From Ecdyonurus torrentis (lineage: Eukaryota; Arthropoda; Insecta; Ephemeroptera; Heptageniidae): DNA of 64,000 nucleotides. Numbering within the stretch: the first letter of the stretch is position 1; every line of letters starts with the position of its first letter. The stretch covers positions 17,384,171 to 17,448,170 of the forward strand of contig OX439137.1 in NCBI GenBank assembly GCA_949318235.1, read 5' to 3'. A program made the translations under genes and the position numbers. Shown in pieces: positions 9,360-62,373 of this stretch. The notes beneath the pieces are model-generated. The model was given only the letters and a program-made list of their open reading frames with translations. It did not search any database and had not been told where the DNA came from.

Positions 9360-12300
9360 TTAGCACATAATACAAGTGGATTTCCTACTGCTATTTACAT
9401 ATGATGCTGGTTTGTACTCATTTATTAACTCAGTGACTTCATCATCTGCAACATCAAAAATCGATGCACCAAATTTGTTTACAACTGTAACATTAGAACC
9501 AGCCAAAAGTAAAAACTCTACTAAATCCAATTGCTTCAAAGATACTGCATAGAATAAAGATGTGTTACCATCATTATTCACTTCTGCAACATCGGCACCT
9601 GCTTCTAATAATACTTTAACCATAGAATAGTATCCTGATGCTACTGCCACGAGTAGCATTGTATTACCTAAACTATCTCTAACTGAAATATTAACACCTG
9701 CATCTAACGCACATTTCACTACCTCTACAAAATCTCTAACTACTGCCAAGTGTAGCGCTGGTGATCCATACATGTCCAAAACTGTATAGTCAGCACCTGA
9801 CTTCAGCAAATATCTTACTAATTCAACATGACCATACTCTGCTGCCAAATGTAGCGCTGTTTTACCACCACTGTACACTTCTCTAACGTTAGCACCACGT
9901 TCTAATAAAAACTGTACTACACCCAGATTTCCTTTCACTGTAGCCCAACTAAGTGCTGTGTAATTGATTTTGCTCTTGATCGTTATATCAGCCCCAGCAT
10001 CTAACAAACACCTCACAATATTGATGTGATTAAGTTCTGCAGCAAAGTGTAAAGATGTGTTTCCATTGAAATTTTGTGCTGAAATTTCAGCACGTGCCTT
10101 AAGTAAACATTTCAAAATCTCTACATGACCCATCATTGCAGCTAAGTGTAGAGCTGTAAGACCATTTTTCGCTACTACTGTGACGTCTGCACCAACGTCT
10201 AGCAAACACTTTAAAACATCCAAGTGACCATTTTGTGCAGCCATGTGTAATGGTAAATAGCCATAACATCCTACTGCTGTAATGTCAGCGCCTGCCTCTA
10301 GCAAACGAGTAACAACATTTTTGTGACCATTTTTTGCAGACACATGCAACGCTGTGTTACAATACTTGTTCTTTACTTTGAAGTTACCACCCGCGTCAAG
10401 CAACAATTTAACTACTTCTACGTGACCTACCTCTGCATGACAGTACAGAGCTGTGTTACCATCCTTGTTAATTTTGTCAATGTCACAACCTGCCTCTATC
10501 AAACACTTTGCTACGTCCACGTGACCTTTCAATGCAGCCAAGTGCAGCAATGAATTACCATTACAATCGAATACTTTGCTGTCAGCACCAGAATCTACAA
10601 AATATCTTACCATTTTTGGACCACAGTTCCTTACAACATAATGAAAAACATCAACTTCTATAATGATTTTTAGAAATAGTGCATCCAACCATTTTTTCTT
10701 AACAATTTCAGACACTTTCTCAATCATTTCAATTTCCAACTGCCTTGCTTCATGAGAAGTATTTTTGCGCAACTTCTCTAAACTTAGAAATAGTTCCTTA
10801 CGTTTTTCGTTGTTATCAACCATTACCTGAAATAATTATTAATTATTAAATTATATAGCATGTAAATAATAATAACATTTATTATTAATTTTGAAGCTTA
10901 ACTATATTAATAATAACTGACGTACTACGTACGGTTTAAAAATTATAAAATCTATACAAATAAGTTGTATTATATATTTTCTAGTGTCTATTAACTAGAA
11001 AAAAATCTTTTGAAAGACACCCTCTGATATACTTGCTGTTAAAAATTGTAACTTATAAAACTAATAATAAGTTAAATAAATTTAAAGCACGTATATAGTG
11101 CTTATGTATCTGAAATATTTAAATATAATGCTACAAATTATATAAATTTATAAAGCTATCAAAAATACATGTATTATGGTTGTTGATTTACTTACAATTG
11201 AGGGCAGCAGGGTTTTCTTGAAAGCATCAACAGAAATTTTATTTATCAATAACAAAGAAAGGGCAGTGGATCTGATTTGTATAATTTTCATTTGTACATA
11301 TTTATCATGTTGATGTGATGAAACACTTAACCAAGTGCAGAACTTAACAAGCTGTTGCTCAAGACTTTCTTTTTGATTTATTTGAACACTTTTGTAATTT
11401 GAGATTGTATCACTTGTTAAAAACTTCTTCAAACGATAAATCAATGCCAAAAGATATATTTTAATTTTAACAATATTAGTTTTATCTTCAAATTGCATAG
11501 AATTTAATGTTGAAGTTGTTACTTTGACAATAATTTCCAGTTCATTATTTACATTATTTTCTAATTTAAATAATAACTCTTTCAAAAAGTAATTTAGGTT
11601 CTCTTTCTGATTAATCTGAAACAGAAAACAATATTATGACTACCACAAATATTATTTACCTAGTTTACTAAAGTTCTTTAAAACATTTTTGCTTCTTAAT
11701 TTTAGAAATAGTATACCCAATTCACTCCTTTTTCTACTCAAACGAATATTAAAGACACTGTATAGTTTTAAAGCATAGTAAATATAAAAATAAATAGTGT
11801 AAATGTAATACTGCAAGATATTTGACTTTTAAGATTATGTTTTATACACTTTAGAAGCGTTGTGAAAGGAAAGAATTAAACTTAACGCTTATTTAACTAA
11901 ATATTTCTTTTAAGCGAAAATCATAGCTTTACGTTTGACTTAAATAATTAAAAATGAGACTTACTTCTAATTTTTCCGACTGCAAGAAAATTATTTTTAA
12001 TAGGTCTTGCAATGATTCGAAATTATATCTTTTATTTATTTGGTCACTTTTTATCATAGCTATAGCTGCTGATGCTATCACCATTTTTCTGCTTTTTATA
12101 TCAAGTAACATTTTTACAGCTTCGGCATCCTGGTACTTAACTATCTGTTTAGTAGCACATAGTATTTCATGGCAGTATATGTGCAGAACAAGTGGGCTGT
12201 TCAGTAGCGTTTTAAACATTATGGTTGCTTCTTTACGTTGATTACTAATATGTAGCATGAGCGTACAAAATAATATAATCATGAAAGATTTCTGTATTTT

Positions 12301-14477
12301 TGTAGAATCTTCCATTATTTCATCCAGATGACTTTCTATATATTCAACTGCATATGTTATGTTATCAATTTCATCAGAGCCAATATAATATTTATCGCTG
12401 ATAACACTTGATATTTTTTCAACAAACTGGTTGAAGATAGATTTAAGAATATCTAAATCATTGAAGTTTAGAATATTTTTAAAGTTATGTATTACGTTAG
12501 CAATCAGTCTATACAACTGATCAATAGTTAGCTTGTGATGATGTAGGATGTTTATTACAGGTGATAGACTCATTTCACTCTGTGTATCGTCAATTATGTT
12601 GCACTTGTGAAAAAGCTTCTTAACTGTTTCTAGATTGACCTCTTCTTTAATGAGAAATTTAATATACGTTTTATGCAATTTTTTAGGATATGAGATGCGC
12701 ATCAACGTTAATAAAGTATCTATTAATTGTTTCTTAGAATTAAGGTCAAAATCAAGGTCAATTCTAAGGAATATACTATCTAGCATTTTATTAATTGAAA
12801 ATGGATAGCATATTTTTAGATCGCTAGGACAGATGGCTCTTATCTTTTCAATGGTAGCTTTGTTTAATGATACCTTAGAGGTATTTAAGAATTTTGCAGT
12901 AACATTTAATGTTAGTGGTAAATGTCCAAAGTTTTTAACTATAGCTTCAATTTGTTTTTGCGAGAGATTTGGAGCTAAGGAAGAAATGAATTGTTGCGAC
13001 TCTTGCATTGTAAATTGCTGCAGTTTGATATTTTGTTGAACATGTGACTGCCATGAGTCATGTACAATAAGTGAGGTAGTAATTATAAAGAACTTAGATC
13101 TCACCTCGGGCGAAGGTAAATATTGCTCTAAGTTTATATTAGATGTTACATCATCGAACACTATAACTTGCTTTTTGGTTCCTTCAATATTAATCTTCCA
13201 ATACAGAGAATCTATGTCTCTTTGTAAGTTTCCTTGCTGAGTTATATTGTATTTTCCGAATAAGCTTATGTATTTCTCCACTAAGTGTTGTTTTGTATAG
13301 CATGGAATCCAAACTTTTGTACTACTAAATTCTAAATCATTTACTTCTAAGAATTTTTTTACTAAATGAGATTTGCCAGTTCCTGCTTGACCAGTTACTG
13401 CTACGTTCACTGCACAACGACGTTGTGATTCTAATATACTTTTCTTCAATGTAGAAAGCTCAGATGTTCTGAAGTAAAAGTGCTCAATTGCAGAGTCCAT
13501 TGTGGTTACTTGAATTAGATTTTGATTTGGTAATGTTGATGTCTTTATTTCCTGAAACATTTTTTTTTGCATTTCTTAGTAAATATGTTTGTTTTTTCAA
13601 TAAAACTTGTATATTTTTAAAATGTTTTAAATCAGTTAAAAAATCCTATCTATTTTAGGTAGAGTGTTTAATTAGAAGTTATTGTCAATAGTTAAAAATG
13701 TTAAATATTTGAAATCAATAATATGAAATGTGACTAAAAAATATATAGTCTGGTACGAAAACAAATATAACAAACATATTAACTAATACAATATTTTTTA
13801 AAATTGGTTTATTTTAACCCCTAGTTATGATATTAATTTTAACAAAATAATATGTTAACTCTTACTTGTTTGAAAGACAAAGATGTCCTTATAAAATTTT
13901 ATTATTATCATTTCATGTGCATTTGTTGTTGTTTTATTATAAATTATTTCAAAATACTCAATATTATTTAAACTGAAAAAATATATAGTTTTATAAACTA
14001 ATATATAATATTTTACCTCATTATGCATAAGTTTCTCATGCCAAATTATTTTGTATTTTAAAGTGGATTCTAGAAATGAAAAACGATGACTGGAATGTCG
14101 TACAATACACGATGAAAGCCACGATACCAAATCCAGGTTACTGCATCTTAAGTTCTCCAAGATAAGATCACGTGATTCTGTAAGAATATGTTTTAAAATA
14201 TCCGAAGGTATTTTATACTAAAAAATAAGAAATTTACTTTATAAAATACATTTTAATTATAAGAATATAATTATATACATAAAAATGAACTTTAAAATAG
14301 GAAAGATTGCAACTAACCTTTAGAATAAGCATGCATAACCAAAAAGTCGGAGTGTTCATTACAGAATTTATTAGTATCTAATGTATCATATCTTGGACTG
14401 TCAGTATGTGTGGACTGAAAAGTTTTGAAACAAATTTATTTTTAAGATTTATTTTAAGAATCAGATAACCTTATTTT

Positions 14478-14512
<35 letters not shown>

Positions 14513-15607
14513 TAAAGAAATGTTTGAAAATAATGATTACTAAAATTCAAATTTAAACTACAAAACATCAAGCTTCAAAATATAAAAAAATTACATTTTT
14601 ACTTATTAAACGAGTTGAAACATTTTGCATAAAATAAAACTTTTTAACATTAAGAAAATGCTTACTGATTCATGCAGTCAGTTATAACTTTTTAATGAAT
14701 TGCAGTTTTATAAAATATAAAAGTTTCATAAACAAGATGCTTGATTGTATAAATAAGATTGAAAATATACTAATACTTTTAAATGTTTTAATAAAAAAGT
14801 ATTACGATCTGAGTTTTTTTAGTTTGACAGTGTTTTTCTTTAATTATATTTACCTGTGCATTCATTAGGATTATAACTTTTGGTTTGCCAGCTAAATTTC
14901 TACATCGCATTGGATTCAGCCCATCTATGCTTTTCTGTAGTTTTATATGCTTGTCTGCAATTTCTGTCAGGTCAAATAACACAAAGCATGATGTGGCTTT
15001 GGAAGAGTCTAGGAAAAACAAGAAAATTAAATAACAAAACCAAATTTTATATCTAACGTGAAGTTGAAACAATAAACGTGTGTAAAAGATGAAGAGACTG
15101 CTGGCTTTTAAGAGTTAAAGTGACAATTGAGAATCTTTCGGAGGAAATTACTCTGGCCCCTGAAAGGCCACTGGCCAAATACTTACTTTACTAAAATAAA
15201 TATCTACAATTTTTTATTAATTTTTCGCATGGATTATCCGTTGTTATAGTAGCAGTGGTTACAATATGAACCAAATTATCCACTTCTACCCAATGTGTAA
15301 GTTGCAATTCTAGTTGTTCACTATAATTGCACTACCCTATGCTAGTGGGAATTGCAAATAGTCATTTTGCCATGTAAACATAGGTAAAAGAAAAATTAAA
15401 TGCAATAAAAATAAATAACTTACATGCTTGAATTATCATTTGATATCTTTCAATTTGGTTTACATTTTCTTCATGTACTATTTTAAACTTCATATTTATT
15501 AATTTTCCTCTATATTGCATAGCAATTTGTTTTGTTGCTGTGTTATATAAAATAAGAGCCACGCCTCCTATTTGGTGATTTGAGCTATACACATCAGAGT
15601 CAGTCAT
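9360..15607 (-). CDS. Pseudocaspase-NB-ARC-ankyrin fusion protein (predicted 1356 aa, 7 exons)
   Basis: Exons are 15607-15424, 15008-14854, 14414-14318, 14177-14017, 13551-11965, 11615-11196 and 10826-9360. Every junction agrees in phase and the exons total 4071 bases. Residues 1-199 are caspase-like: SSNHQIGGVALILYNTAT, CRNLAGKPKVIILMNAQ, HSDFLVMHAYSK and a p10-like SWLSSCIVRHSSHRFSFL. The catalytic segments are replaced: FDLTEI lies where LSHGEEG is expected and MNAQS where QACRG is expected. Residues 200-728 hold an NB-ARC/STAND ATPase with Walker A GQAGTGKS (about 253-260), Walker B VIVFDDV, FFIITTS and GHLPLTL. A helical stretch follows. Residues about 930-1335 hold roughly 13 ankyrin repeats (TALHLAA..GHVE.L..LL.AGA). 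The C terminus CIMC is CaaX-like. Likely a signalling switch; substrate and trigger are unknown. The weakest joins are the acceptors at 14177 and 13551. Without them this would be two genes, a pseudocaspase and an NB-ARC-ankyrin gene starting at the ATG at 13572. Confidence 0.72.
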
Positions 15608-15629: not shown

Positions 15630-15880
15630 CTGAAAATTATATTTATTATATATCGATGATGTTGCGACTAAACCACGCTTCTACTTTTAGCGTATTTCCT
15701 AACAGGTAAAAACATTTCTACACCTGTTCTTCTATGTAGAAATGTTTTTTACTTGCTGTCGCGATAAATGTAGATACGCGTTTTTATGGCTATCACGATA
15801 AACGTAAATGCGTGAAAGTAAAAGGAAACACGCTAAAAGTAGAAGCGTGGTTTCGCCACGCAACACCATCGATATATTAT
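15630..15880. mobile_element. MITE with ATATCGATG-type ends, next to the first exon of the fusion gene
   Basis: The inverted arms are TATATCGATGATGTTGCG plus CCACGCTTCTACTTTTAGCG on the left, and CGCTAAAAGTAGAAGCGTGG plus GCAACACCATCGATATA on the right. A second inner inverted pair surrounds CGATAAA sequences. A degenerate relative lies at about 37800-37915. The left end is within about 15 bp of the exon that carries the start codon at 15607. Confidence 0.8.
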
Positions 15881-16396
15881 AAACAAGAATACAAAACAAG
15901 TATGTTTTTTCAAATAGCTCTATTTAAAAAAAAAATTATATAAATTGGAAGAAAATATTTAAAAATTAACTGAAAATCTAAAAAAAATTTAAATTATACT
16001 TAAATCTTAATTAATGTAGAGAAATATTTTAAATCTTTTATTTTAATACTATTCATATAAAGTTAGAAGAAATTTTCACTATTTTAAATAAGTGTGTTGT
16101 TTTTCATAGCTGCCCATTAAAATTTTGGTTTTGTATTCCTTTATTAATTTACCACGTGACACCACAAGGTTTAGAAATTTTGGTAACGAAACTTGAAATT
16201 TAAAAACACAAAAAACTCCCAAATCAAAACAATTAACGAAATAGGTGAAGCTAATTACACTAAGAGAGAGATAATTATTAAGTTATTAAGATTAACATTA
16301 TTATTATAAGTTATTAAGACTTTAAATTTATTACTAAAAGTAAAATGTAAATATTATGAAAAAGGTATCTAAATGAACTTATAATTATAAGGTTTC

Positions 16397-16527: not shown

Positions 16528-16567
16528 TAAGTATAAAGGAAATAATAATTTTAAAATAAGGCAGAAT

Positions 16568-16784
16568 ATATATCGATGCCTCCGCGTCAAAAGCGAGCAT
16601 CTGCACTTTTCAGATTTCCGACCAAACGACTATATACACTTTCCGAGCAGCGCTGGAACTTGACTACCGGCCATATTAAGCTTAACATTGCAGATGCTTG
16701 CCGGCGGAAAGTGTAGTTAGTCGCTTTGCCGGAAATCAGGAAAGTGTGGATGCTCGCTTTTGACGTGGAGGCATCGATATTTTT
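16568..16784. mobile_element. MITE with ATATCGATGCC-type ends
   Basis: The arms are ATCGATGCCTCCGCGTCAAA with AGCGAGCATC on the left, and GATGCTCGCTTTTGACGTGG with AGGCATCGATAT on the right. A truncated copy (right half) is at about 50753-50840. Confidence 0.85.
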
Positions 16785-16804
16785 TATTAAATAAATATTT
16801 TATC

Positions 16805-17802: not shown

Positions 17803-22584
<4,782 letters not shown>

Positions 22585-23996: not shown

Positions 23997-26900
23997 ATGA
24001 ACGCCAATTCTACCTTATTATTTTCTTTTGTACTTTTACTCGCAATTTTTGCACAAAAAGGTAACATATTTTTATATATTTGTATGTAGGATGTTTGCAT
24101 GAAATTGCGCATGATCGCCATGATGAAGCAAATATATGCTTTGTATCAGAGATTAAATTTTGCTTTTTGTTATTTTTTATATTTTATTTAGTATTTTTAC
24201 GCTTTATGAAAAACAAATAATTTTATTTATAATATTTTTACAAATAAACTTTTAGTAATTAAAAAAAAATCCCTGTAGCGCACTCAATGTATAATATTTT
24301 TCCCATATTTGAATAATGAGGGTTGTTTGATTTAATGTTAATTATTGCACAAATATGGCATAGAAGCGCAAGCTAAAATTTTATTAGTGAAATCACCACA
24401 AATATCTCAATTTTAACATTAATAAAAATCACATCAACTTTTATAAAAGTATAAAAAGGTCATGAAAAATAATTTTTTATTCATTTATTTATTTTTTACT
24501 TGCTTTTATATATATATATATATAAACTTTGTTTGTTGTTATATATTGCCCCTGCTTCTGCTAGTGTATTTGATTTGATTTTTTTTAATATAAAAATTAT
24601 AAAAACTTAACAGAATGTATTATAATTAATTTCACTTAAGGCTCGAGGTAAAGTAGCTCGTCGCCTAGCTTACCTCGATATTTACCGCTAAGTAGTGATG
24701 ACCATCGCTGCGTAATGTTCTTGAGATTTCAGCGCAAGATTACAAATTAAAGTTTGCGTCGTGTGAGAATATTCACATAAAAACAAAAGTAGAACAAATG
24801 AAAATTAGACAATAATAATAATAACAAGCTTTTTGTAGTTTTTTTTTTAATATTTCATTAAAATTAAATATAAAAAATATTTTTACATTTTCAAATATTT
24901 TAACGATTAATAATTATTTTTACTTTTAATTTTTGTCTTTTATATCAAGTGTATAATTTTGAAGGTAATTACTTTATTATTATATTGTATAATTGATAAT
25001 ATTCATTTATTTTTCTTGTTTGCTTTAGTTTGTTTATTAAAATTTTTAAATACAATTTTAACTTTTTAGTGTATAAAATGTATTTTATTTATCAGTTTTT
25101 ACATTTTTTTATGTTAAATGCCTTAATTATTTCTGATTTATTTATTTATTATTATTAGTTATTTACTTGTTTATTTATTTATTTTTTTCACATATATTTT
25201 TTTTAATTAAAAAGGTAGTTAGACCCTCGTCATAGAGCGTAGAACGTTAAATTCATAGTAATATTGATAGTAATATTAATATAGTAATATTGATAGTAAT
25301 ATTGATAGTTATATTAATAGTAATATTTGCATTCCAAGTGCAAGTATGATAATTGGAAGTTATTGTGTGTGTTTTTTTAAAGAAACTATTAAAAAAATCT
25401 ACAGCTTAAAATACGTAAAAAAAAGTATGTCTAGTATTTCTGATTTAAACTTCTCAAAAATCGATAGAATAGTTTTCTTGAAAATCGAAAAAAAAAGAAA
25501 AGAAAAAAAAAGTGTTTTTCCCCAAAAGGGTAATGTTAAATTAAAGTGGTCTCTTAGCTTTCCCCGCATCTCCCCCCTCGCTAAACAGATTAGCTTAAGT
25601 TAAGATGGAAGTCTCCATATATTGGATCTTAAAGGAATAGACCAGGAAAAAAACATATGCATTTATATCACAAAACACTTGATGGGACTTACATAAATAA
25701 CTTTAGTTTGTCTCAAAACACAACTGTAGCTCCGTAGCAGTGATCAGAAAAATTGCATTTATGCAACTCACATATATATAAGTGGTTAAATTCAATTTAA
25801 AATAATTTAATTAAATAAAATTATGAAAATGGTTAAAGTTTTAATTTAAAACTACCCGTGTACATAAACATAATTTGTATTTAGAATTGCCTCATTTTTA
25901 CAAGCCCTCGATCCCAACAGATGGCGTTTGCATATACTTAAGCTACTAACTAATTCAACGTATTTACAACATTAATGCTCTCAAAAATATTGCATATTAT
26001 TTTGAAACTGTAAAAATGAGTTATTTTCCTATACCACTCATGTTATTCAGTGATCCAACATTGCGTCGACTTTAACATGAATGCATACACCCTATATAAT
26101 ATTCTGTACAAATTAAAAAAAAAATACATATTTTATAACGAGTCATTATTTCAAATTGTAAGTATATTTCACTTTGATACAGTCGTTAAACATTTGCCTT
26201 TCTTTTTCTATGCATATAGTGCGTCATAATTTTATCTAAACTTCCTGGATGATAAAAACATTGTCTGTGTATTTCTGCAATATATATTAAATAGTAACAA
26301 CACTAATTAACCTAATCACCATTATATAATTATTTTTTTTATCAAGAATGTACCCCTCGTCTCCTTATACTTCTAAGCAAATTTACTTTAATTTCTTAAA
26401 GGAATAGACCAGAGAAAAACATAAGCATTTATATCACAAAACACTTGATGGGACTTACATAACTAACATTAGTATGTCTCAAAAAACAACAGTAGGCCCG
26501 TAGCAGTGATCAGAAAATTCGATTTATGCAATCCGCACAACATTTTCATACTAATTTTTGCATGTTTCTGACGTCATAAACATGAATTTTCACATAAATT
26601 GCATACTTTACAGTTTTTTCACGCTCTCTCGTGGGGCTACATTAACATTCTGGTAAAAATTGGCATTAGTTTTAAAGATCCCATTTCGTGTTTATTTATT
26701 AAAAAGCACATGTTGTTTAATGTGGTCTATGTTAATTCTTTACTTAAAAAAACAAAATCGATAAAAATATAATTAATAATTAAAGAGGAAGTTCAGGATT
26801 TACAACATGTCTTTTTTCAATGTTAGATAATGAGAAGAACTGTTCATACACTAATATAATTATGATGACCAAAAGACCTTTTCCGTAACCCCGCAGACTT

Positions 26901-29900: not shown

Positions 29901-30674
29901 TCAAAGCTACGACTTGCTCCGAGGACCTCGTGTCAAAGTTCATTGACCTGCTCAAGGTCGCGGTGTCCACTGAGAAACTGAAGCCAGTATGCATGAAGAC
30001 AGATATCAAAAGTGAGTAGGAGCAGCCGCGGTGAATGTTAATATTTTGTGTTCCATTCTATAATAGTGTTAATTAAAAAAAAACTTCTAAAAATTCATTA
30101 TGTACACAAAACATTCTTCAATAAATATTTCTGGCCTTTACTGAAAATTCCTTATAATTATTTTGATCATTCTTCAAAAAAAAAATATATATATATTTTT
30201 AAAGTGAAGCAATTTTATGAATTTAAAAAAAAACTACTACACTGAGGTCAGAAATATTTACATAAGAAACAATCAACACACTTTTACGTGTTTTAAGACA
30301 ACTTTTTACGCGATAACATCCTTAACCCAGTTATTGTATTTGTATGCAATCTGTATGCAAACTATTTATCCTTATGTTTACATAATTGCATTATTTACTC
30401 TCTCCCTCCCTCCCTCCCACTTACACACTTACTAACTATACTCCACTCTATGCTTACAGTCGGTAAAGAGACCATAGTACGACGTGACTGTGCCATGGTT
30501 CCAGTGACAAACCTTCAATTCCAAGCCAACTGTCAGAAGATGTCTCAGGACACAGGTGGTGTCCTGCAGTACTGCGGTGTATGTGAGCAGGACGGATGCA
30601 ACCTGACCTCCAGACTGCAAGTAGCCTCAGTGACCGCACTACTAACCATCTCTCTCTTGATCAACCTACTCTAG
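23997..30674 (+). CDS. Ly6/uPAR-type GPI-anchored protein (predicted 157 aa, 3 exons)
   Basis: Exons are 23997-24060, 29817-30011 and 30460-30674; both introns are phase 1 and the joins are clean. Residues 1 to about 22 form a signal peptide (STLLFSFVLLLAIF). The mature part starts ALKCYQC, the typical Ly6 opening, contains ten cysteines, and ends CGVCEQDGCNLTS, the typical CxxDxCN signature with an N-glycosylation sequon. The last 17 or so residues (VASVTALLTISLLINLL) are hydrophobic and fit a GPI-attachment signal. Expected at the cell surface as a three-finger fold. Insect relatives regulate ion channels or septate junctions, but the sequence does not say which. Length is normal for the family. 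Intron one (5.8 kb) is packed with transposon copies. Confidence 0.88.
24620..24800. other. Small GC-richer island in the Ly6 intron
   Basis: A stretch with GCTCGAGGTAAAGTAGCTCG and TTACCTCGATATTTACCGC stands out from the AT-rich surroundings. No frame, tRNA shape or repeat partner was recognised. Confidence 0.3.
25240..25332. repeat. Short tandem repeat of TAGTAATATTGA
   Basis: About seven imperfect 12-15 bp units of TAGTAATATTGA/TTAA type. Confidence 0.8.
25405..25605. repeat. Dispersed repeat R5, copy 1
   Basis: Landmarks are AAGTATGTCTAGTATTTCTG, TTAAACTTCTCAAAAATCG, AATAGTTTTCTTG, an A/G-rich run, then GTTAAATTA and CCCCGC...TCGCTAAAC. Relatives are at about 51800-51960, 57270-57455, 58010-58160, 58990-59245 and 62455-62600. 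Confidence 0.65.
25631..25780 (+). repeat. Repeat R1, truncated copy
   Basis: Begins AAGGAATAGACCAGG and matches the first 150 bp of the copy at 26396. Confidence 0.7.
25890..26098. mobile_element. MITE family R2, partial copy
   Basis: R2 is the commonest element here, about 310 bp. One end reads TAGGGTGTATGCATTCATGT (or GGGTGGTTTCATTCATG) with ATGGCGTCGACTT. The middle has TTTTTGAGAGCATTGATG. The other end has ATGCTGAGCAATGTTATTCA, GCGCATTAAATATGACGTCA and CACCCTATA. This copy keeps the half ending ATGCATACACCCTATATA. Confidence 0.75.
26396..26745 (+). repeat. Repeat R1, full copy
   Basis: The clearest plus-strand copy, from AAGGAATAGACCAGAG to about ATGTGGTCTATG, with GTGGGGCTACATTAACATTC inside. 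Confidence 0.8.
26943..27263. mobile_element. MITE R2, full copy
   Basis: Runs from TATAGGGTGTATATGCGGAT to ATGCATACACTCTATAG, with TA at both ends. Confidence 0.8.
27351..27662. mobile_element. MITE R2, full copy (GGTGGTTTCATTC subtype)
   Basis: From GTGTACGCATGACGTCATTC to AATGAAACCACCCTATAG. In tandem with the previous copy across an A-rich spacer. Confidence 0.75.
28118..28392. mobile_element. MITE with long inverted arms
   Basis: The left arm GCGCTAGAGAACTTTAACAC continues to GCGACATCCCAATGTCTTAG. The right arm is its near reverse complement (ATGGGGATGTCGTTTCTCTG ... GGCGGCGC). Two CCAAT-type boxes (TAATTGGTTCC, GATTGGTGCC) lie in the middle. GC-richer than the surroundings. Confidence 0.8.
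28786..29097. mobile_element. MITE R2, full copy (GGTGGTTTCATTC subtype)
   Basis: From AATAGGGTGGTTTCATTCAT to GCACACACCCTATACAT, opposite in orientation to the two copies upstream. Confidence 0.8.
29100..29816. other. End of the first Ly6 intron, nothing recognised
   Basis: AT-rich intron sequence with a partial R1-like segment around 29500-29590 (AAATGTTGTAAAGTAGGCAA, TGACGTCAGG) and an acceptor TTTGCTACACAG at 29816. Confidence 0.5.
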
Positions 30675-35105: not shown

Positions 35106-36582
35106 TGCTACTTTAAAACTTTAATTATTATGTTAAATTAATAAAAAATTAAATTTTTAGTAAATATAGATCTAAATATATAAATAGGGTAAAAAAACCG
35201 AAATCAACACTCTCAAGGTGTCTACTATCGTGCAATTTTGCCACTTAGATGCCACGATTTAACTCACCACCGTAATTAGCTATGTTCAAGGGATCGTAGG
35301 GAGGGATGCCCGATTGCTCGCGACATGATCCACAACGTGACTTATAGACGTTTCCGATGATCTGAATTTCGATCCTCCGGCCTCACGTACCAGAATCTCG
35401 TCTTTTCTTCAACACATCAGATTCCATGAACTAACTCTATAGCCGAGAATGACGAATTAACGTGCAATCTTCTACAAAGTTAAACTGGCAAGTCCCTTAT
35501 TATACATCTTTAGCTCCAAATCTTTAAGCCCTAACAGATAACCTAAAGAATTTGTCTATCCCGAATAATAACCGTACGTGTCACAACATAAGTCCTGGTG
35601 ACCATAGTCCCCCACTAATGTTAGTGGGGCTACATTAAATCAACTTTCATTCTTATGTTGAATGTTATATTTTTATCCAATGGCCGGGAGAGCAGTCACA
35701 TAAACATAGATGGCTGTCAACTTGGGTAACACTATTCAGTGTTTAGAGTCATTAGTGTTAAACTATTATTAATATAGGGCTAACAATTAAATATGACTCT
35801 TGCTCATTGCATCCTTTGCAAGTAAGAAACATTCACAAGAAATAACAATAGAAAACTTAGAAAAGTAGGTGAGAAAATAAACAAACTGACAGCTAAACAA
35901 TACTAATAAAGTGATAGCAGACGACTTTGTGTTCATGTCTACATTTAACATGCTTTCTTATAAGGTAAAAATGAAGTAGCTATATATAACTCAAGTAATG
36001 ATTATTTTTTGGAGCTGAAGTTCTTACTGCAGCTCAAAGCTTTTGTTTTCCTAGAGATCAATCAATTTGGTACAATATATATTTTCATCCCAGTTGATTT
36101 CAATTTCAGAAAAACAAAAACTTTAAGGCTCAGTAAGTAAGCAAGTATAGGCTCTGAAAGGCTACTCAAAAGGCCAGTACAATTTTCTGAACAAAAGTTT
36201 CAGTTTTTCAGAAAAGAAAAATACAGCTCCAAAAACTTATGAACATCGAAAGTTGTAAAAACATGGTTGTTGCCGTTATTTAAACCCATGCTATATGAGA
36301 ATAAAGTCGACGTTTAAAGCTAGAAACGGGTTAATCGTTTCAAAAGACAGGCCTTTTTTATTCTTTCTATAGATCCGCACACTGGCAAAGAAAAACAAGG
36401 TACTAAAAGTGTTTTGATTGCATATAACACGAAATTCGTTCTATATAATTTAAACGTAAAATAACTGATATCTTTTTGTAAAAAAATGTATACTTTTTAT
36501 TATTTATTTAATACTATTTATGTTATACGGTAATAATAAAATTTATTCAGTAAAATGCAGAGGCTATATACCTCTCTCTCTC

Positions 36583-39104: not shown

Positions 39105-40590
39105 TACTTTTAAACTTTAATTATTATGTTAAATTAATAAAAATTTAAATTTTTAGTAAATATAGATCTAAATATATAAATAGGGTAAAAAAACCCGAAA
39201 TCAACACTCTCAAGGTGTCTACTATCGTGCAATTTTGCCACTTAGATGCCACGATTTAACTCACCACCGTAATTAGCTATGTTCAAGGGATCGTAGGGAA
39301 GGATGCCCGATTGCTCGCGACATGATCCACAACGTGACTTATAGACGTTTCCGATGATCTGAATTTCGATCCTCCGGCCTCACGTACCAGAATCTCGTCT
39401 TTTCTTCAACACATCAGATTCCATGAACTAACTCTATAGCCGAGAATGACGAATTAACGTGCAATCTTCTACAAAGTTAAACTGGCAAGTCCCTTATTAT
39501 ACATCTTTGGCTCCAAATCTTTAAGCCCTAACAGATAACCTAAAGAATTTGTCTATCCCGAATAATAACCGTACGTGTCACAACATAAGTCCTGGTGACC
39601 ATAGTCCCCCACTAATGTTAGTGGGGCTACATTAAATCAACTTTCATTCTTATGTTGAATGTTATATTTTTATCCAATGGCCGGGAGAGCAGTCACATAA
39701 ACATAGATGGCTGTCAACTTGGGTAACACTATTCAGTGTTTAGAGTCATTAGGGTTAAACTATTATTAATATAGGGCTAACAATTAAATATGACTCTTGC
39801 TCATTGCATCCTTTGTAAGTAAGAAACATTTACAACCAATAACAATAGAAAACTTAGAAAAGTAGGTGAGAAAATAAACAAACTGACAGCTCAACAATAC
39901 TAATAAAGTTATAGCAGACGACTTTGTGTTCATGTCTACATTTAACATGCTTTCTTATAAGGTAATGAAGTAGCTATATATAACTCAAGTAATAATTATT
40001 TTTTGGAGCTAAAGTTCTTACTGTAGCTCAAAGCTTTTGTTTTCCTAGAGATCAATCAATTTGTTACAATTTATATTTTCACCCCAGTTGATTTCAATTT
40101 CAGAAAAACAAAAACTTTGAGGCTCAGTAAGTAAGCACGTATAGGCTCTGAAAGTCCACTCAAAAGGCCAGTAAAATTTTTCTGAACTTAAGTTTCAGTT
40201 TTTTAGAAAAGAAAAATACAGCTCCAAAAACTTATGAGCATCGAAAGTTTTAAAAATATGGTCGTTGCGGTTATTTACACCCATGCCTTATGAGAATAAA
40301 GTCGACGTTTAAAGCTAGAAACGGGTTAATCGTTTCGAAGGACTGGTCTTTTTTATTCTTCCTATAGATCCGCACACTGGCAAAGAATAACAAGGTACCA
40401 AAAGTGTTTTGTTTGCATATGACACGAAATTCGTTCTATCTACTTTAAACGTAAAATAACTGATATCTTTTTGTAAATAAATATATACTTTTTATTATTT
40501 TTTTAATACTGTATTTTTGTAATACGGTAATATTAAAATTTGTTCAGTAAAATGCAGAGGCTTTATACCTCTCTCTCTCTCTTTCTATGT
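39105..40590 (+). repeat. 1.5-kb direct repeat, right copy
   Basis: Same order and orientation as 35106-36597, with few substitutions and small indels. Ends in a CT tract. Confidence 0.85.

Positions 40591-41531: not shown

Positions 41532-62373
<20,842 letters not shown>

Follow-up and report, generated by a model that had tools for sequence, protein, structure and literature searches.

A predicted pseudocaspase, NB-ARC and ankyrin-repeat gene next to an intact caspase gene in the mayfly Ecdyonurus torrentis

Two genes that may bear on cell-death signalling lie side by side in a stretch of 64,000 nucleotides from the mayfly Ecdyonurus torrentis (Heptageniidae; GenBank assembly GCA_949318235.1, contig OX439137.1, positions 17,384,171 to 17,448,170 of the forward strand), which we refer to as the window. 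One is a predicted minus-strand gene of seven exons that would join an inactive caspase-like domain, an NB-ARC ATPase and an array of ankyrin repeats in a single chain. The other is an intact caspase gene, which lies upstream on the same strand and ends 2.2 kb before the start codon of the seven-exon gene at 15607 (coordinates are those of the window; Table 1). All six introns of the seven-exon gene are of the GT-AG type and the exons join in phase, giving a coding sequence of 4071 nucleotides including the stop codon and a product of 1356 amino acids that has no internal stop. In these respects a preliminary description of the locus, made from the sequence alone, was reproduced to the base: it had proposed seven exons with sound splice sites, joined in phase over 4071 bases. 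Its further claim, that a caspase-like domain, an NB-ARC domain and ankyrin repeats follow one another in one open frame, is supported by the gene model, Pfam and hhalign. It had overlooked the caspase gene upstream.

In DNA of about 71% A+T by base counts, a stop-free frame of 1356 codons is not a product of chance. That the locus is a pseudogene or an assembly artefact is scarcely credible. Such a reading could point to the homologue searches, which found no relative, but it has to contend with the length of the frame in DNA of this composition, with the sound splice sites and with a window that contains not one N.

Coding character was assessed separately for exons 1–4. Joined, they contain no stop codon in the predicted frame, compared with 22 in each of the other two frames. 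A codon score trained on exons 5–7 and the upstream caspase reaches 0.264 for exons 1–4, above all of 2000 background stretches (maximum 0.157). This score discriminates weakly: frame 1 of the same DNA reaches 0.208, also over the background maximum, and when exon 2 or exon 4 is scored singly, another frame outscores the predicted one. It is therefore the stop-free frame that carries weight for exons 1–4. The true N-terminus could sit in a further upstream exon, as the frame stays open upstream of the ATG at 15607 and an AG acceptor at 15631-15630, read by eye, would give a phase 2 junction, as at intron 1 of the upstream caspase. A foldback element at 15642-15883 (arms of 25 nucleotides at 92% and 31 nucleotides at 97% complementarity) ends some 35 bases upstream of the predicted start codon and may supply promoter or splice signals.

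The upstream gene encodes an effector-type caspase of 256 amino acids with a short prodomain, an LTHG motif and an active site that reads NACRG where QACRG is usual; its first exon, 29 nucleotides long, was placed by eye. The protein matches Peptidase_C14 in Pfam at 3.4e-40. Among 253 candidates it has 32 homologues, all with PF00656 (best E-value 3.8e-30); a Culex caspase, 34% identical, scores highest. From these homologues we built a caspase profile, retaining the 26 of at least 215 residues (six shorter ones were dropped) and adding the window's own caspase, so that the profile used to detect the domain described next includes that caspase.

The N-terminal 200 residues of the seven-exon product match no Pfam family at an E-value of 1, Peptidase_C14 and CARD included, the latter with the proviso of a possible further exon upstream. 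Against the caspase profile, hhalign gives a probability of 93.7, a P-value of 1.9e-7 and a score of 52.4, where the best of 100 shuffles reaches 25.3 and ten further segments of this protein reach at most 16.3. Exons 1–4 alone give a P-value of 1.4e-7. The alignment spans 211 columns and residues 2–229 under a permissive setting, and 115 columns under the default setting. In hmmsearch the same profile gives 23.0 bits, where the highest score among 5000 shuffles is 11.0. In a six-frame search of the window, the open reading frame of exon 2 (E-value 7.4e-5) ranks right after four exons of the true caspase.

Several observations tell against the explanation proposed below. Single-exon scores are good for exon 2 only: exon 1 has an E-value of 6.5 in the six-frame search, which lists neither exon 3 nor exon 4 at an E-value of 10. 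Because exon 2 alone scores well, the caspase signal lies mainly in residues 67–119, and these are the only residues that hmmalign aligned, leaving the p10 half unaligned. The mapping of p10 comes from MAFFT and hhalign. With these programs the domain aligns over both the p20 and p10 segments; the significant score stems from p20, and p10 is weakly aligned. We also considered whether the first residues of exon 5 complete the p10 segment. MAFFT places them on the last caspase strand, but adding them left the hhalign score flat (52.3 to 52.4), and the candidate was set aside. A dimer-forming strand at the start of exon 5 would thus be a MAFFT placement that lacks score support.

The intron positions provide a comparison of another kind. 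Introns 1–3 of the seven-exon gene have phases 1, 0 and 1, the same phases in the same order as introns 3–5 of the caspase gene. In the MAFFT alignment the offset is 1 codon for the first matched pair and 3 codons for the second. For the third it is 3 codons when measured from the side of the seven-exon gene and 7 from the caspase side, and it vanishes when counted without gaps from a shared DFL motif. In simulations that use assumed phase frequencies, the chance of at least three matches is 2.4e-4 when a tolerance of 3 codons is allowed, 8.8e-4 with 5 codons and 2.1e-3 with 7. On the opposing side, introns 1 and 2 of the caspase gene have no counterpart in the seven-exon gene, and intron 4 of the latter has none in the caspase gene. 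On this comparison the two genes are probable paralogues, or else both have a gene structure common to caspases.

The neighbouring caspase is a possible origin of the N-terminal domain, and a possible partner for it. The score of a pairwise alignment of the two is not significant, being equalled or exceeded by 218 of 2000 shuffles in local mode and by 249 of 2000 in semi-global mode. Since this is so, the partner need not be the neighbouring caspase. A recent duplication is countered by the same result and by a tblastn search of the window with the neighbouring caspase, which listed no exon of the N-terminal domain at an E-value of 1. Any duplication would have to be old, because the sequence divergence is large.

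Could the domain be unrelated to caspases, its match driven by a stretch that reads LAGKPK? The empty Pfam result and the non-significant pairwise score fit such a reading, as does the restriction of single-exon scores to exon 2. So does a single-sequence search of PDB, in which the top match is a Rab protein (E-value 0.056) and caspase-3 appears from an E-value of 0.07, mixed with kinase chains. We nevertheless consider it very improbable, given that profile scores lie above those of shuffles in two programs, that the intron phases recur in the same order, and that D136 and W165 of the domain fall on D172 and W194 of the upstream caspase in the MAFFT alignment.

The domain has lost the catalytic residues of caspases. 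MAFFT and hmmalign agree in placing E77 at the position of the catalytic His (LTHG) and A112 at that of the catalytic Cys (ACRG), and inspection of residues 106–120 reveals no Cys. R46 and R187 of the caspase line its S1 pocket. Neither arginine is kept: in the MAFFT alignment the first faces N22 and the second S158, and hhalign sets a gap near the first position. Because the catalytic His and Cys positions are occupied by E77 and A112, we class the predicted N-terminal domain as a pseudocaspase and not as an active caspase. These results modify the preliminary description. Of its suggestion of an effector or a decoy, the protease role is now disfavoured. Its caspase label holds for what it called a p10-like segment, although the likeness extends over p20 as well as p10 and it is p20 that scores significantly. 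It had also proposed a check with Pfam models, of which those for NB-ARC and Ank find their domains, whereas Peptidase_C14 goes unmatched and a caspase profile is needed.

Exon 5 matches the NB-ARC family PF00931 in Pfam with an E-value of 1.1e-7 and 31.8 bits, over the curated cutoff of 23.5. It contains Walker A and Walker B together with a GxP motif, all intact by eye. The likely place of the winged-helix MHD motif, also located by eye (12544-12576, minus strand), reads EMSLSPVINIL and contains no His, a change that might alter the predicted nucleotide switch. The best NCBIfam match of the exon is a bacterial FxSxx-COOH TPR family (FxSxx_TPR), at 9.3e-17 and 60.8 bits; it is partial, covering the first 200 or so positions only, and far under the full-length cutoff of 300. 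A sequence search of PDB with exon 5 returned no Apaf-1, CED-4 or Dark structure, its two matches at an E-value of 10 being other nucleotide-binding proteins. A single-sequence AlphaFold model of exon 5 alone has a mean predicted local distance difference test score (pLDDT) of 37.3, too low to inform on the fold. Between residues 430 and 960, approximately, Pfam finds no convincing family.

Pfam detects Ank (PF00023) in exon 7 with an E-value of 7.8e-83 and in 11 stretches. A single-sequence AlphaFold model of this exon has a mean pLDDT of 79.9, mostly 85–98 for exon residues 121–440, and predicts a regular solenoid of 11 helix pairs at a spacing of 33 residues, for which the top Foldseek matches are designed and natural ankyrin-repeat structures. 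The same exon (9360-10826, minus strand) scores 26.6 bits to the retroviral protease family RVP of Pfam, above its cutoff and with no stretch passing singly; this match is probably a repeat artefact.

Table 1. Features of the seven-exon gene and the neighbouring caspase gene, in window coordinates
Feature	Residues	Coordinates	Strand	Basis
Seven-exon gene: exons 15607-15424, 15008-14854, 14414-14318, 14177-14017, 13551-11965, 11615-11196, 10826-9360		9360..15607	-	
Exons 1–4, predicted pseudocaspase domain	1-199	14017..15607	-	gene model, hhalign, hmmsearch, alignments
SCFVLFDLTE, in the position of the catalytic-His strand, which reads VMFVVLTHG in the upstream caspase	68-77	14962..14991	-	alignments, sequence
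NLAGKPKVIILMNAQ, in the position of the active-site strand and QACRG of caspases	99-113	14854..14898	-	alignments, sequence
Intron 4, junction deciding one gene or two; in-frame ATG at 13572 (MQKKMFQ, then exon 5)		13552..14016	-	
Exon 5, NB-ARC ATPase and start of the following region	200-728	11965..13551	-	gene model, Pfam, NCBIfam
Pfam NB-ARC match	232-426	12871..13455	-	Pfam
Walker A, GQAGTGKSHL	253-262	13363..13392	-	sequence, by eye
Walker B, KQVIVFDDV	326-334	13147..13173	-	sequence, by eye
GxP (GLPL-type) motif, GHLPLTL	408-414	12907..12927	-	sequence, by eye
Exon 6, linker, no convincing domain	729-868	11196..11615	-	gene model, Pfam
Exon 7, with linker, ankyrin repeats and the stop codon	869-1356	9360..10826	-	gene model, Pfam, AlphaFold, Foldseek
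Ankyrin repeats, about 11 helix pairs and a last lone helix	961-1339	9414..10550	-	Pfam, AlphaFold
Intact caspase gene, six exons as modelled here: 22584-22556, 21885-21816, 21390-21237, 20563-20391, 19522-19405, 18029-17803		17803..22584	-	

From genomic DNA we infer that the animal makes these parts as a single chain, and a single gene spanning exons 1–7 is, on the predicted gene structure, the probable arrangement. The junction of exons 4 and 5 is the weak point of the fusion model. Two adjacent genes may meet here, a pseudocaspase gene of exons 1–4 that ends in intron 4 and an NB-ARC–ankyrin gene that starts from the ATG at 13572; or a single locus with two promoters may give long and short products. 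We hold this to be unlikely, while taking it as a serious contender. The ATG at 13572, which shares the frame of exon 5 and comes after a stop codon, could start an NB-ARC–ankyrin protein alone, and retention of intron 4 would leave the frame of exon 4 open as far as 13855. Ahead of the exon 5 acceptor there is a stretch of A, which makes a poor pyrimidine tract, and the failure of the caspase score to rise with the first residues of exon 5 suits two genes. Arguing for one gene, the GT donor of exon 4 is in phase with the AG acceptor of exon 5, a one-in-three coincidence, and MAFFT matches the residues just past the junction to the final strand of the caspase, with the limit on that placement given above. 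Polyadenylation signals are scattered throughout this AT-rich DNA, too common to discriminate between one gene and two.

The surroundings of both genes contain repeats and putative gene fragments. Intron 5 of the caspase gene (19404-18030) contains a foldback element at 18164-18482, with 108-nucleotide arms at 96%, and an open frame at 18985-19305 that is presumably retroelement-like. Another foldback element, with 81-nucleotide arms at 85%, lies at 16565-16785. Copies of a dispersed repeat at 1414-1704, 20923-21193 and 25646-25750 are 88–92% alike in matched stretches, and the caspase gene has one of them in its intron 3. Farther away, 35248-36496 and 39245-40491 on the minus strand form a similar pair, separated by about 4 kb, that has common peptides such as GRRIEIQIIGNVYKSRCGSCREQSGI, as judged by eye. 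An open frame on the plus strand at 30297-30671 has a weak match to Quiver (Ly-6-like; E-value 2.8e-4), under the cutoff. Minus-strand segments at 42875-43081 and 44500-44817, which have no Pfam support, we take to be fragments like an organic cation transporter gene of the major facilitator superfamily. A Pfam search of ten other open frames in the window gave two weak matches at an E-value of 0.01, both under the cutoff.

The predicted fusion has no relative among the candidates scored. Residues 1–900 have no homologue at an E-value of 0.001 among 7981 scored candidates (those sharing most words), and the NB-ARC region, residues 205–470, has none at an E-value of 10 among 1326 candidates, in a collection that includes animals (the 32 caspases were found in it) and with a sensitivity restricted by the word filter and length limits. 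Both results count against the receptor reading given below. Exon 5 was also sought outside animal genomes: 2 stretches in viral contigs and 18 in bacterial and archaeal genomes fit a pattern, none of them confirmed, which argues against a near source in viruses or bacteria for this sequence, the collections being of those genomes and not of animal ones. Among the matches listed from the open-licence literature, no animal protein with a caspase or pseudocaspase together with NB-ARC and ankyrin repeats is evident. The parts and the tripartite plan are already known; their combination in an animal appears new.

Known systems resemble the predicted protein in part. Apaf-1, CED-4 and Dark share with it a central NB-ARC, a link to caspases and, in most, a repeat region. 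They carry a CARD, usually with WD40 repeats (absent in CED-4), and recruit caspases through CARD–CARD contact; here, in contrast, a pseudocaspase would take the N-terminal place and ankyrin repeats that of WD40. Caspase recruitment by CARD–CARD contact is described for Apaf-1 in passages of PMC6321704, and in the literature passages covered the N-terminal modules of animal NLR and Apaf-1 type proteins are CARD, DED, Death or TIR. In an arthropod, a further NB-ARC receptor in physical linkage with a caspase locus would qualify the picture of such receptors for that lineage. Fungal NLRs come near in plan, with a protease-fold N-terminal module, a STAND NTPase and ANK, TPR or WD40 repeats as sensor, but belong to another kingdom; the passages covered name proteases of CHAT and serine types, regarded as effectors, and mention no dead caspase of metazoan type (PMC12881547, PMC9815663). 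Among animals, Acropora has 11 NACHT/NB-ARC proteins with ankyrin repeats (PMC7642931, Table 4; also PMC4083563 for cnidarians), the N-terminal domains named being CARD, DED and Death, with no caspase fold in the passages covered. In amphioxus a sensor domain is fused directly to a caspase domain in TNFR-caspase and LRR-caspase hybrids, but as these are described in the part of PMC2575513 covered, QACXG is kept, they are thought to be proteolytic, and neither fusion has an NB-ARC.

A last comparison is with c-FLIP and the insect caspase-like decoys, which likewise have a caspase domain stripped of catalytic residues and related to an active caspase. These proteins differ in having no NB-ARC or ankyrin part, and c-FLIP has death effector domains. 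An Aedes decoy, which we take to be CASPS18, belongs to this group. Such dead caspases can act on live ones: c-FLIP does so on caspase-8, and the Aedes decoy is reported to enhance a paralogous caspase (cited in PMC3141678).

Looking across the analysis, the predicted anatomy is that of a STAND receptor, with an N-terminal signalling module, a nucleotide switch and a repeat sensor. The best explanation, which in our judgement stands an even chance of being right, is a single-chain receptor of the STAND type (NLR/Apaf-like) with a pseudocaspase as signalling module and the ankyrin array as sensor. We infer the steps that follow, all of them from ligand binding onward. The ankyrin array would bind a ligand or host factor and would keep the NB-ARC in its ADP state, and ligand binding would permit exchange for ATP and oligomerisation. 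The resulting ring of pseudocaspases would pair with zymogens of the neighbouring or another caspase through caspase–caspase contacts, which would stand in for a CARD or death domain. The zymogens might then be activated by proximity, as by c-FLIP(L) with caspase-8, or be held off.

Whether the outcome is activation or inhibition bears on another alternative, in which the N-terminal domain is a constant decoy, a dominant-negative caspase inhibitor, and the NB-ARC–ankyrin part serves solely as a scaffold for localisation or stability. We think this distinctly unlikely. Both catalytic residues are gone, as expected of a decoy, and inactive caspase homologues and c-FLIP are known; but Walker A, Walker B and the GxP motif are all kept, suggesting a working switch. 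Because a constant decoy would need no ATP switch or sensor, activation or tuning is favoured over pure inhibition. On our analysis the proposed STAND-type receptor would thus probably gather the neighbouring caspase, or a related one, and activate or tune it.

A more specific version of this proposal is tentative, and on balance doubtful. It would make the protein a one-chain receptor akin to an apoptosome or inflammasome, in which a captured dead copy of a caspase replaces the death-fold adaptor and recruits its former sister caspase next door by direct pairing. If true, the wiring would be different from that of the known receptors, with recruitment done by a caspase-fold module that is joined to an ATP switch.

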